Source: Synergistales bacterium (GTDB lineage Bacteria; Synergistota; Synergistia; Synergistales; Aminithiophilaceae). From it: a stretch of DNA of 64,000 bases. Position 1 is the first letter of the stretch; each line of letters begins with the position of its first letter. Shown here piece after piece: positions 42,626-60,324 of this stretch. The position numbers and the translations under genes are program-made. Where the stretch lies: contig JAHDQY010000009.1 in assembly GCA_018433595.1 (NCBI GenBank), positions 1 through 64,000 on the forward strand. The letters are read 5' to 3'. The notes below the pieces were generated by a model. It saw only the letters and a program-made list of their open reading frames with translations. It made no database searches and was not told the origin of the DNA.

Positions 42626-43165
42626 CGTGCACTCTCCTTTTTTGTGATGGGATGCGCTCCGTAACATGAGCGTGTCAAAATTTTTAACTCTTATATATTA
42701 TGGCATATCGGCGGCGTTTAGGCATCGGAATTGGCATGTATAAATGCCTTACGGTCTCAAAAAAGGCACTGAGGTCCTGACGAAATTTTGCCAGATGCGA
42801 TTTGTTGTACAAGCCCAAGTTCGATAAAACCAGTCTTGTTAAAATATTCTTGTCGGAAGATCTGATGTTTCTTCGCGTTCAGCCTGTCCTTTGGAGAAAG
42901 ACGGGGAATTTTTCGTGGCGACGGTATCCTCCTATCTCTGACGGCTGTTCCCATAACGGGTGACGCCGATGAAACCGTCAGCCACGTCGTGGCAACGAGG
43001 GGGAGCCTCTCGTCGCTCTCTCGGCTGCGGTTCCTTGGTGAAAAGATGAGGCTTTTTCGAAAGATTCCTGTCGAATGCCTGATAGAATACTTTGATGGCG
43101 GCAAGAGGTTTCTGACGGGGACAGCGGACGCAGCTTGCAGGACAGGAAAGGAGCCTTTCGGCTGG
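42626..43165. other. Region between PII-like and TetM-like genes, no clear gene
   Basis: AT-rich near 42668-42710 (candidate minus-strand promoter area, cataatat). A minus-strand open frame at 42757-42954 (ends ELGLVQQIASGKISSGPQCL) has natural codon use but no ribosome site or family match. It may be a decayed gene end. The open frame upstream of the TetM-like start is not supported as coding. Confidence 0.4.
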
Positions 43166-45133
43166 ATGAATCAGACCAGGGAAATCAGGAACATCGGCAT
43201 TTTCGCCCACGTCGACGCTGGCAAGACGACCCTCACGGAGCGGCTCCTCTTCGCCGGCGGGGCCATCCGTACCTTGGGCAGTGTCGACGAGGGGACGGCC
43301 AGCACCGACGGCCTCGACGTGGAGCGGGAAAGGGGTATCTCGGTCCGCGCCGCCCTTGCCTCTCTTGCGTGGAAGGGGACGACGATCAACCTCGTCGACA
43401 CGCCGGGCCACGTCGATTTCTCCGCCGAAGTGGAGCGTTGCCTTCAGCCTCTCGACGGAGCCGTGCTGGTCCTCTCGGCCGTCGAGGGCGTCCAGGCCCA
43501 GACGGAGGTGCTCTGGCAGGCCCTTCGGGAGAGGGGCCTGCCGACGGTTTTTTTCATCAACAAGATCGACCGCATAGGGGCTGATCCCAAGCGGGTCGTC
43601 GGCGACATCAGGCGGTTCCTCACGCCTCAGGCCGTACCGCTTCAGACGGTGGGCGGAGCCGGGACGGATAGCCCCGCGATCCTCTCCGCTTGGGTCGAAG
43701 GCGGGGCCGACTTGGCCGAGGATGTGCTGGAACAGCTGGCCGACGCCGACGAGACGCTCCTTGAGCGCTATCTCGACGGCGAGGAGATTCCCCTTGATGA
43801 GCAGGACGGAAAACTCGTCGCGCTCGCCAGAAGGGGTGCCGTCTTTCCCGTCCTCTTCGGGGCTGCCCTCGACGGTATCGGTGTGGAGGAGGTGTTGGAA
43901 GGCATCATCCGCTATCTGCCGCCGGCCGGCGGCAGCGCGGAAAACCCCCTTTCAGCGCTCGTCTTCAAGGTTGCCCACGACCCTGCCTTCGGTCGCGTCT
44001 GTTTCGCCCGCCTCTTCGGGGGACGCCTGGCCACGCGGGACGTCGTGCGCAACGCCGCTCGGGTCCTTGACGAGAAGGTGACGCTTCTTCGAAAGGCCCG
44101 GGGCTGCCGTTTTGACGACGCCGATTCCTGCTGCGCCGGCGACATGGTCCTCCTCTCGGGTCTCAACGACACGAAAGCAGGCGATATCCTGGGCGATCCT
44201 TCGGCTGTCCCCCGGCCCGTCAGGCTGCTGGAGCCGCTCTTTCGGGCCCGCATCGTCCCCGCCGAGCCCGATCGTCTGCCCGCGCTGCTTGAGGCCCTGC
44301 GCATCCTCGATGAGGAGGACCCCTTCCTCGATTTTCGCTACGATCCGGAGCGCAAAGAGCTGCATGTCCGCATCGTGGGTCTCATGCAGACTCAGATTCT
44401 CGAGAGCCTTCTGCGCAGCCGTTTTGGCCTGACTGTCACCTTCGAACAGCCGGCGACGATCTACCGCGAGACCCCCCTCGACGTTGCCGAGGGGACCGTG
44501 GAATACACCCTTCCCAAGCCCTGCTGGGCCGTCATGACCTTCCGCGTCGAACCGGGAGCGAGGGGATCGGGCATCTCCTTTCGTTCCGAGGTCAGCACCG
44601 ACGACATCCATGTCAAGTACCAGCGCGAAGTGGAGCGCGCCCTTCCGGCGGCTCTTGAGCAGGGCCTTTATGGCTGGGAGGTGACCGATCTCAAGATCAC
44701 CCTCGTCTCAGGCGAGGATCACGAAATCCACTCCCGCCCGTCCGATTTTCTCATCGCCACACCCATGGGCATCATGGATGCTCTCGAGAAGGCCGGCACC
44801 CGCCTCCTCGAACCCATCCTGGGCTTTTCTCTCACGGCCCCTGAAGAGATCGGGACCCGCGTCCTAGGCGATCTGGTGCGGATGCGGGCCGAAATCGAAA
44901 GTCCCGTCATCGCCGGAGGCCAGTTCCAGGTGAAGGGGACCGTGCCCGCCGCCGACTCCATGGAGTACCCCGTTCTGCTCGGGACCCGCTCCGGCGGCAG
45001 AGCCCGGATGGTCACGCGCTTTTGCGGCTACCGTGAGTGCCCCGACGACTTCCGGGCCGAAACGCCCCGTCACGGCATCGATCCCCGGGACCGGTCGAAG
45101 TACATTCTGGCGGCGAGAAAGGCTCTGAGTTGA
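43166..45133 (+). CDS. TetM/EF-G-like translational GTPase (ribosomal-protection family)
   Basis: A 655-residue translation factor. The G domain starts at once ([41 protein letters not shown]). EF-G-like domains II to V follow, including LFGAALDGIGVEEVLEGIIR and QREVERALPAALEQGLYGWE. This is the tetracycline ribosomal-protection subgroup by length and layout. However, the domain IV tip that displaces tetracycline in TetM (YSPVSTPADF) reads HSRPSDF here, shorter and without the Pro-Val pair. Resistance is therefore not assured, and it may be a housekeeping paralogue. ATG 43166 sits just before the conserved RNIGI strand. Confidence 0.88.
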   Translation: MNQTREIRNIGIFAHVDAGKTTLTERLLFAGGAIRTLGSVDEGTASTDGLDVERERGISVRAALASLAWKGTTINLVDTPGHVDFSAEVERCLQPLDGAVLVLSAVEGVQAQTEVLWQALRERGLPTVFFINKIDRIGADPKRVVGDIRRFLTPQAVPLQTVGGAGTDSPAILSAWVEGGADLAEDVLEQLADADETLLERYLDGEEIPLDEQDGKLVALARRGAVFPVLFGAALDGIGVEEVLEGIIRYLPPAGGSAENPLSALVFKVAHDPAFGRVCFARLFGGRLATRDVVRNAARVLDEKVTLLRKARGCRFDDADSCCAGDMVLLSGLNDTKAGDILGDPSAVPRPVRLLEPLFRARIVPAEPDRLPALLEALRILDEEDPFLDFRYDPERKELHVRIVGLMQTQILESLLRSRFGLTVTFEQPATIYRETPLDVAEGTVEYTLPKPCWAVMTFRVEPGARGSGISFRSEVSTDDIHVKYQREVERALPAALEQGLYGWEVTDLKITLVSGEDHEIHSRPSDFLIATPMGIMDALEKAGTRLLEPILGFSLTAPEEIGTRVLGDLVRMRAEIESPVIAGGQFQVKGTVPAADSMEYPVLLGTRSGGRARMVTRFCGYRECPDDFRAETPRHGIDPRDRSKYILAARKALS

Positions 45134-45446
45134 AAACGTCACAAGGGCGGTGCCGCGGAGGCCTCCTGTCAGGACAAAAGATCTCCGCGGCGGTGTCTTC
45201 AGCAAAGGGGTCTTTCCATTTATCGGCGATGAAATTCCGGGTTGAGCGGATTCGTGGCGTGCTCTTGTCGGAGCCTTCTGTGCTATACTTTCACGGAAAT
45301 TTACTCTGAGCGATGAGGGGCTGTTGTCTTATGACGCCGCTTTGTGCAATGGATCTTGCTTCAGGTCGGGAGGCACGTGCCTGACCTGATCGCATCGGCG
45401 CCTCCCAAAAGTTGAGGTTGAAAACTAACTTTTGGAGGTCAGCCCA
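45134..45446. other. rsgA leader region
   Basis: No gene. A TATACT box at 45287-45292 could start a leader of about 150 nt, which holds two hairpins. Hairpin 1 is at 45361-45389 (tcaggtc/gacctga with inner aggcac/gtgcct). Hairpin 2 is at 45401-45438 and covers the rsgA ribosome-binding site. Confidence 0.6.
45401..45438 (+). promoter_or_regulatory. Stem-loop that sequesters the rsgA ribosome-binding site
   Basis: cctcccaaaagtt (45401-45413) pairs with aacttttggagg (45427-45438) over 12 base pairs with one bulged C. The 3' arm contains the ggagg site of rsgA (45434-45438), nine bases before its TTG start. Another hairpin lies directly upstream. This arrangement would keep the site closed unless something opens it. 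Confidence 0.7.
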
Positions 45447-46529
45447 TTGGACGAAAAAGAGAATTTTGGTTTCAGCGAGAGCTTCCTCGCTGAGTCTTCT
45501 TGTGCTGATTTTTCTGTGGGGCGCGTGGCGTCGCAGTCGAAGGGGCTCTATCGGGTCATCACCGAGAGGGGCGAGGTCACGGCGGAGGTGTCGGGAAAAT
45601 TCCGCTTTGCCGTGAAGCGTCTCGCCGACTATCCGGCCGTGGGCGATTTTGTCCTCGTCGATCGAGACGGTGATGATGGCGGTCACGCGATCATCCACCG
45701 CCTTCTGCCTCGGAAAAGCGCCTTCATCCGGAAGGCGGCAGGTACGGCCGAAGAGGAGCAGGTGGTGGCCGCCAACGTCGACACCGTCTTTATCTGCGTG
45801 TCGCTCAACAGTGACTGCAACCTCCGAAGAATCGAGCGCTATCTCAGTGTGGCCTGGAGCAGCGGGGCCCTGCCGGTCATTGTCCTCACCAAATCGGACC
45901 TCTGCGACGATCTTCCCGAGAAGCTGGCCCAAATTGAAAGGGTTGCCATCGGCGTCGATATTGTCGTCACCTCGAGCCAGACCGACGACGGGTGGCAGGC
46001 CGTCCGGGCCTATCTTGACTGGGGCCGGACGGTGGCCTTCATCGGTTCCTCCGGCGTCGGCAAGTCGACGCTGATCAACCGGCTCATCGGCCGCGACCTT
46101 CTGGCGACAGGGGAAATCCGAGCAGGAGACGGCAGGGGGAGGCACACGACGACGCGGCGGGAACTGATCGCCCTTCCGGAGGGCGGCGTCGTCATCGACA
46201 CGCCTGGCATGAGGGAGCTCGGCCTTGACAGTGCCGATCTTGCCCGGACCTTTGCCGATATCGACGACCTGGCGGCGCGGTGCCGCTTCCGCGACTGCAC
46301 CCATGACGGGGAGCCCGGCTGCGCCGTGGAAGAGGCCATCCGCGACGGGCTCCTTGAGCCTGAAAGGCTGGCCAGCTACCGCAAGCTCAAGAAGGAGGCC
46401 CGCTACGAGGGGCTCAACTCGCGGCAGATCGAAGCGGAAAAGATCACGGCCATGTTCGGCCCCCTGGGCGGCATCAAAAATGCCCGTCGATTGGCCAAGG
46501 AGAAAAACAGAAGACGTCACGGCTACTGA
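45447..46529 (+). CDS. rsgA: Small ribosomal subunit biogenesis GTPase RsgA
   Basis: Late 30S maturation GTPase with circularly permuted G motifs. The 360-residue product has an N-terminal OB fold (about 25-100), then G4 (VLTKSDL), G1 (GSSGVGKSTLINRL, about residue 200), G3 (DTPGMRELGL), and a C-terminal zinc site (CRFRDCTHDGEPGC). All motifs are intact. The TTG at 45447 is the best start: ggagg precedes it by nine bases, and the protein then has normal length. That ribosome site lies within a 12-bp stem, so translation may be regulated. Confidence 0.95.
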   Translation: MDEKENFGFSESFLAESSCADFSVGRVASQSKGLYRVITERGEVTAEVSGKFRFAVKRLADYPAVGDFVLVDRDGDDGGHAIIHRLLPRKSAFIRKAAGTAEEEQVVAANVDTVFICVSLNSDCNLRRIERYLSVAWSSGALPVIVLTKSDLCDDLPEKLAQIERVAIGVDIVVTSSQTDDGWQAVRAYLDWGRTVAFIGSSGVGKSTLINRLIGRDLLATGEIRAGDGRGRHTTTRRELIALPEGGVVIDTPGMRELGLDSADLARTFADIDDLAARCRFRDCTHDGEPGCAVEEAIRDGLLEPERLASYRKLKKEARYEGLNSRQIEAEKITAMFGPLGGIKNARRLAKEKNRRRHGY

Positions 46530-60212: not shown

Positions 60213-60324
60213 CTGCTGGAGGCCCAGTCCCGTGCGGCGAAAGCCCCCGAACTCCGCCAGGCCCGGAAGGGAGCAACGGTAGGGGATTCTTTCGGGTGCC
60301 ACGGGGCCGCTGGGCCTCCAGCAG
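60213..60324 (+). ncRNA. ffs: Signal recognition particle RNA, small bacterial (4.5S) type
   Basis: Hairpin RNA that binds Ffh for membrane targeting. The conserved apical part is present (ccaggcccggaagggagcaa with the ggaa tetraloop, 60258-60277). The base is a 15-bp stem, ctgctggaggcccag pairing with ctgggcctccagcag (60213-60227 with 60310-60324). The stem extends outwards (aaaacggtttt / aaaaccgtttt, 60202-60335) and ends in a T-run, so the RNA and its terminator share a stem. Confidence 0.95.

Follow-up and report, generated by a model that had tools for sequence, protein, structure and literature searches.

The gene rsgA of a Synergistales bacterium is preceded by a leader that quite probably acts as a leader-peptide translational attenuator, induced by a stalled ribosome and probably sensing ribosome-targeting inhibitors. 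This leader lies in a 64,000-nucleotide stretch of DNA that was analysed as a whole (assembly GCA_018433595.1, contig JAHDQY010000009.1, positions 1 to 64,000 of the forward strand) and that is referred to here as the window. The parts of this reading carry different weights: comparative sequence and folding models make it very probable that the switch is operated by stalling, and gene content together with the literature somewhat favours an inducer of the antibiotic type. The sensor appears to be the translation of a conserved leader peptide, judging from its core, its codon pattern and a fixed 16-nt spacing. The features concerned are as follows, the promoter element and both Shine-Dalgarno (SD) sequences being assigned by sequence.

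42989 to 45133, plus strand: gene for an EF-G/Tet(M)-like GTPase of the ribosomal-protection type (NF012153), start codon uncertain; context, outside the switch.
45281 to 45289, plus strand: extended -10 promoter element TGC-TATACT, with its hexamer at 45284-45289.
45315 to 45320, plus strand: SD of the leader uORF, GAGGGG; an SD-like purine run is kept in the aligned leaders.
45331 to 45384, plus strand: leader-peptide uORF of 17 aa, MTPLCAMDLASGREARA, from ATG 45331 to TGA 45384; start, core and frame are conserved.
45352 to 45360, plus strand: core codons D8-L9-A10 ([DE]-[IST]-[VA] family), where the ribosome is predicted to stall with its P site on D8.
45362 to 45367, plus strand: segment 1, CAGGTC, the 5′ arm of hairpin 1, under the predicted stalled ribosome (mask 45340-45367).
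45362 to 45388, plus strand: hairpin 1, CAGGTCGGG/CCTGACCTG, from folding.
45368 to 45388, plus strand: segment 2, comprising GGGAGGC (45368-45374) and the 3′ arm of hairpin 1, CCTGACCTG (45380-45388); it covaries with segment 3.
45400 to 45406, plus strand: segment 3, GCCTCCC, whose partner is segment 2 (on) or the SD (off); both helices covary.
45401 to 45438, plus strand: SD-sequestering stem-loop 3:4, CCTCCCAAAAGTT (45401-45413) with AACTTTTGGAGG (45427-45438), from folding and covariation.
45434 to 45438, plus strand: segment 4, the rsgA SD GGAGG.
45447 to 46529, plus strand: rsgA-like GTPase gene with a C-terminal extension, TTG start at 45447-45449, 360 aa (TIGR00157, PF03193).

The leader can adopt either of two arrangements. 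GGGAGGC in segment 2 is complementary to GCCTCCC in segment 3, the strand that otherwise hides the rsgA SD, and helices 2:3 and 3:4 are therefore mutually exclusive; hairpin 1 (1:2) together with 3:4 gives the closed layout, and 2:3 the open one. A reading of this DNA made earlier from the sequence alone had described a 12-bp stem over the rsgA SD, and this is present (12 pairs with one bulged C), as is the hairpin that it placed ahead of the stem, most of which lies inside a uORF absent from that reading. The folding energy of the 93-nt segment is -40 kcal/mol, that of its shuffles -27.3 on average (z -3.7), none of 200 dinucleotide shuffles being as good, and the 164-nt leader has a z of -2.5 against shuffles. 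The stretch GTGCTATACTTTC also occurs 5′ of the uORF in the genus relatives L002-L004, and transcription is expected to start near 45296.

From comparative sequence and folding, we propose that during normal uORF translation ribosomes would cover or pass GGGAGG in segment 2, so that CCTCCC in segment 3 would pair with the SD in segment 4 and rsgA would be off. A ribosome stalled at the core codon [DE], with that codon in the P site or adjacent to it, would have its front edge just before GGGAGG and, in the window's genus and in leaders of RNHCP genes (see below), would break hairpin 1:2; the freed GGGAGG could then pair with CCTCCC, exposing the SD and allowing translation of rsgA. Gene content and the literature suggest that the most probable cause of the stall would be a ribosome-targeting inhibitor that acts together with the core of the nascent peptide, and that an accessory RsgA, the RNHCP protein and a GNAT enzyme would form a small group of genes responding to inhibitors.

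The peptide core, x-[DE]-[IST]-[VA], is conserved and its third codon positions are free. Among 70 leaders, core position 0 is D in 31, E in 21 and K in 12, and the core is not strict, with K, A, S, Q, T or R at this position in some leaders. Position +1 is I, T, S, L or V, serine being encoded there by both AGT and TCN codons. All 70 leaders have V (44) or A (26) at position +2, where all eight GTN and GCN codons occur and the entropies at codon positions 1 to 3 are 0, 0.95 and 1.89 bits; the parse used to find leaders demanded V or A at this position, and what is informative is the spacing, which does not vary, and the freedom of the third position, not the V/A. Shuffling the codon columns seldom gives amino-acid entropies as low as those of positions 0 (0/500) and +1 (2/500). 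Downstream of the core the frame may shift and the peptide may end, and in many leaders of RNHCP and GNAT genes the stop codon follows the core by about two codons or less (for example, after MKKNNTLEIVG and MINKLFMDIAV). To our knowledge, [DE]-[IST]-[VA] equals no arrest motif.

The distance from the start Met to the core is variable, from 12 to 36 nt. From the core to GGGAGG it is 16 nt in 56 of the 63 non-redundant leaders and 17 nt in five, a sharpness for which the parse (12-20 nt permitted, with a mild preference for 16) is insufficient alone where GGGAGG is unique. In toeprinting, the front of a ribosome typically lies 16 nt from its P-site codon, so GGGAGG would lie at the front edge when the core codon occupies the P site. 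An amino-acid or tRNA-charging attenuator, in which the ribosome would stall at hungry core codons, would have identical geometry, but the core residues vary (D/E/K/Q, then I/T/S/L/V, then V/A) with none repeated and the target genes are non-biosynthetic, and we consider this reading very improbable.

Among 35 leaders of rsgA (Synergistota, Bacillota and Fusobacteriota) both helices covary. The score is 0.217 for helix 2:3, against 0.116 in shuffles (0/500) with slid controls at or below 0.116, and 0.192 for helix 3:4, against 0.119 (0/500) with slid controls at or below 0.144; among related sequences such shuffles overstate significance, and the slid controls retain the relatedness. A separate covariation count agrees, and the Peptoclostridium leader has a compensated core pair, GGGAGA/TCTCCC. 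The earlier reading had proposed covariation and conservation of the stem among relatives as its check, and since both helices covary and the leader is kept, its view that a regulator-like, conserved structure covers the rsgA ribosome-binding site is supported.

Its suggestions of how the structure is operated are not supported. A ligand riboswitch, an RNA thermometer or a ribosomal-protein leader acting on the SD stem would agree with the strong sequestering stem, but what is conserved is the codons of the uORF and the pair of competing helices, an aptamer-like loop or junction is conserved nowhere in the leader, and the leader is common to unrelated genes. The coding signature would also be left unexplained, whereas the peptide core, codon pattern and 16-nt spacing point to translation; we therefore give these modes of operation hardly any weight. 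A search of the leader against Rfam found nothing above the gathering threshold, and no riboswitch family matched even at E 10, the only matches being two chance ones to snoRNA/miRNA families, in agreement with the earlier remark that the leader fits no known riboswitch class.

Folding with a ribosome mask placed on the uORF agrees with a stall at the core. In RNHCP leaders, opening of the SD costs 2.2 kcal/mol with the core in the P site and 8.0 kcal/mol two codons later; the values are 2.9 (core in P site) versus 8.6 kcal/mol for the Synergistota rsgA leaders and 2.1 (core in P site) versus 6.9 kcal/mol for the Bacillota/Fusobacteriota leaders. In all three groups the opening energy is lowest when the P site is on the core codon, and one to two codons further on the SD closes sharply, the best stall codon shifting by about one codon as the assumed ribosome front edge goes from +12 to +17. 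For the window leader, a ribosome on D8 gives 6.2 kcal/mol against 9.5-11.5 kcal/mol elsewhere, and this is the only minimum. The minimum-energy fold of the full-length window leader leaves the SD closed even with a stalled ribosome, the 3:4 stem being strong, and helix 2:3 prevails only if the transcript ends at 45410; switching there would thus have to be at least partly kinetic, as for ermC.

Ribosome-free folding bears on the possibility that the uORF monitors initiation or slow elongation with no specific drug involved. When few ribosomes occupied the uORF, helix 2:3 would form and RsgA would be made, boosting 30S maturation in a homeostatic feedback, and RsgA is indeed a 30S maturation factor (PMC10475562). 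The ribosome-free SD is fairly open in the Bacillota/Fusobacteriota leaders and several Synergistota rsgA leaders (mean 2.4 kcal/mol; 0.6-1.4 kcal/mol in L006, L007 and L009), and in those open leaders a ribosome that passes or terminates closes it, both of which fit such a feedback. However, sensing of translation capacity requires neither a conserved core in the peptide nor its fixed spacing of 16 nt, and leaves the GNAT enzymes unexplained, and the ribosome-free RNA is closed in the window leader and in RNHCP leaders, the SD of the latter costing 8.1 kcal/mol to open and opening only within a narrow interval around the core. We regard this explanation as unlikely.

The stall-operated attenuator that we favour has the composition of the ermC type: a short uORF in the same transcript, predicted to be translated, with conserved start, SD, frame and codon pattern; a target SD sequestered in the off state by helix 3:4, which folds and covaries; an alternative helix releasing it, 2:3, which also covaries and has segment 3 in common with 3:4; and a conserved predicted stall site at the ribosome-edge distance (16 nt, with the energy minimum at the core). 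In ermC and ermA likewise, a stall codon of a translated short uORF lies one ribosome edge 5′ of the switching segment, 1:2 plus 3:4 is the off state and 2:3 the on state, and the SD of the next gene is in segment 4. The leaders described here differ in that many of them are without hairpin 1:2, that their targets are rsgA, RNHCP and GNAT genes and not Erm, and that the core [DE]-[IST]-[VA] is none of the Erm/ARE arrest motifs IFVI, IAVV and RLR (the last from PMC6310831).

RsgA homologues were gathered from the window's order and phylum and from GTDB genomes. The uORF-bearing leader stands before rsgA in the four genus genomes and in most of the remaining Synergistota with a close homologue. 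It occurs as well in Bacillota, and plasmids of Peptoclostridium and Cetobacterium (Fusobacteriota) carry it too; phyla are named here by record title. A leader model built on primary sequence (R1) and scanned across 188 genomes also matches genus g3, which has no rsgA and in which the leader precedes a gene for a 140-aa RNHCP-domain (PF12647) protein. Genes for rsgA (38 genomes) and RNHCP (34 genomes) never occur together in one Synergistota genome, an exclusion that does not amount to independent statistics as the RNHCP genomes are mostly of one genus. The R1 matches in G027 fall inside the EF-Tu coding sequence, and weak matches at L194, L196, L198 and L199 are without uORF or switch; these were rejected as chance.

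A structural covariance model (R2), trained on rsgA leaders alone with the RNHCP and GNAT leaders outside the training set, was run on 400 Bacilli genomes, 391 Clostridia genomes and 38 records that contain this type of rsgA homologue, and matched in five of the Bacilli and 29 of the Clostridia genomes. All 69 of its Bacillota/Fusobacteriota loci lie directly 5′ of rsgA (46), RNHCP (10) or a GNAT acetyltransferase gene (13), and none precedes any other gene type. The restriction of the leader to three kinds of gene in three phyla suggests that it serves as an alarm for stress that blocks ribosomes, for instance from antibiotics.

RNHCP and rsgA form overlapping operons, and the leader drives the RNHCP-rsgA pair in Acetobacterium, Fusibacter and L269; L138 is the leader of an RNHCP gene adjoining rsgA, and in L257 rsgA is followed by GNAT. 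A Vibrio coralliilyticus plasmid (L107 2468-3899) has overlapping RNHCP and rsgA genes in an operon that lacks the leader, which indicates that the functional link between them reaches far past the switch-bearing phyla. The predicted RNHCP fold (pLDDT 71) had no match in the PDB with E <0.1, its sequence gave only zinc-finger noise against PDB sequences, and no functional study of RNHCP was found in the open-access literature searched. A Streptomyces plasmid (L200 3494-4327) carries a tandem pair of RNHCP genes followed by a gene for an FBP-domain protein.

The RsgA of the window scores 163.6 bits against TIGR00157 and passes the curated cut-off of 100, and its genome has a single rsgA copy. 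Genes of this type are patchy in the phylum (38/188 genomes), and a purely housekeeping role was rejected for this reason; the same patchiness, and the presence of the leader before two unrelated gene families, weakens the link to (p)ppGpp control of a housekeeping RsgA that had been drawn earlier. Nearly all leader-bearing RsgA proteins (window 45450-46529; loci L108-L187) have the C-terminal extension YEGLNSRQIE.EKI..MFG..GG.K.A, which the alignments of most homologues without the leader do not include. The Tet(M)-like gene lies directly upstream of the rsgA leader and adjoins rsgA in four genomes of the genus; its product scores 594.5 bits against NF012153, below the 775 cut-off.

The list of targets, the Tet(M)-like neighbour and the activation of the Streptomyces RsgA paralogue SCO6149 by WblC/WhiB7 under tetracycline (PMC7157823) together point to ribosome-targeting inhibitors as the trigger. 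The output of RsgA could be protection, rescue or shut-down, the last because RsgA can inactivate ribosomes (PMC10475562). The switch might thus raise RsgA so as to dampen translation under stress or phage attack, as an inducible ribosome inactivation or hibernation; overproduced E. coli RsgA does lower ribosome activity and inhibit T4 (PMC10475562), and this proposal concerns the output only and is compatible with the switch mechanism. The association with GNAT and Tet(M)-like genes better fits rescue or resistance, however, and we think inactivation improbable.

Several known systems resemble the proposed attenuator in part. The closest precedent for a GTPase paralogue under leader-peptide control appears to be Listeria hflXr (lmo0762)/rli80, a ribosome-associated GTPase paralogue behind a leader-peptide attenuator that is induced by lincomycin and erythromycin (PMC6310831), although it uses transcriptional attenuation, an RLR peptide and another GTPase family. 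For translational control by several drug classes the closest precedent is seemingly toiL of E. coli topAI-yjhQP, a uORF with an SD-occluding hairpin that is induced by several classes of ribosome-targeting antibiotics (PMC12121999); a stall anywhere in that uORF opens one hairpin, whereas the rsgA leader has one predicted stall position, fixed at the core, and its two helices compete. The WblC/WhiB7 regulon, activated by translation-targeting antibiotics, includes the RsgA paralogue SCO6149, TetM and GNAT enzymes (Eis), and wblC is itself uORF-controlled (PMC7157823), but there a transcription factor integrates the signal and here every gene has its own leader.

The mechanism class is already known; provisionally, the family of leaders, with its core and its set of target genes, appears to be undescribed, since it was not found in the open-access literature searched. 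Nothing relevant on rsgA with a leader peptide was found there beyond the WblC paper, and the uORF4u paper has no RsgA case. We put at about even strength the broader proposal that an undescribed, portable attenuator class marks a hitherto overlooked ribosome-stress regulon (accessory RsgA, RNHCP and GNAT) in at least three phyla, with accessory RsgA and RNHCP as new factors of ribosome protection or rescue; a specific natural ribosome inhibitor, perhaps new, would then be sensed through [DE]-[IST]-[VA]. If so, an accessory RsgA, an RNHCP zinc protein and an Eis-like GNAT, which are not filed as resistance genes, would answer one ribosome insult, RNHCP would gain its first functional context, and an assembly GTPase would join the ribosome GTPases used against inhibitors (TetM and HflXr). 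The leader itself would be a ready reporter for finding the inducer.

Two leaders depart from the usual arrangement. At L188 992-1115 (G183:C34) a leader-like uORF, MRRSLMAEIVIGGEVRTY and a stop codon, with switch elements is followed by a gap and a SAM methyltransferase gene with its own SD; the original target may have been lost, or the methyltransferase may be a fourth target. In an Acetobacterium rsgA leader (L135 2179-2540) there is an insertion between the switch and the rsgA SD. Elsewhere in the window, the tmRNA and small SRP RNA genes (1732-2083 and 60221-60319) are ordinary.
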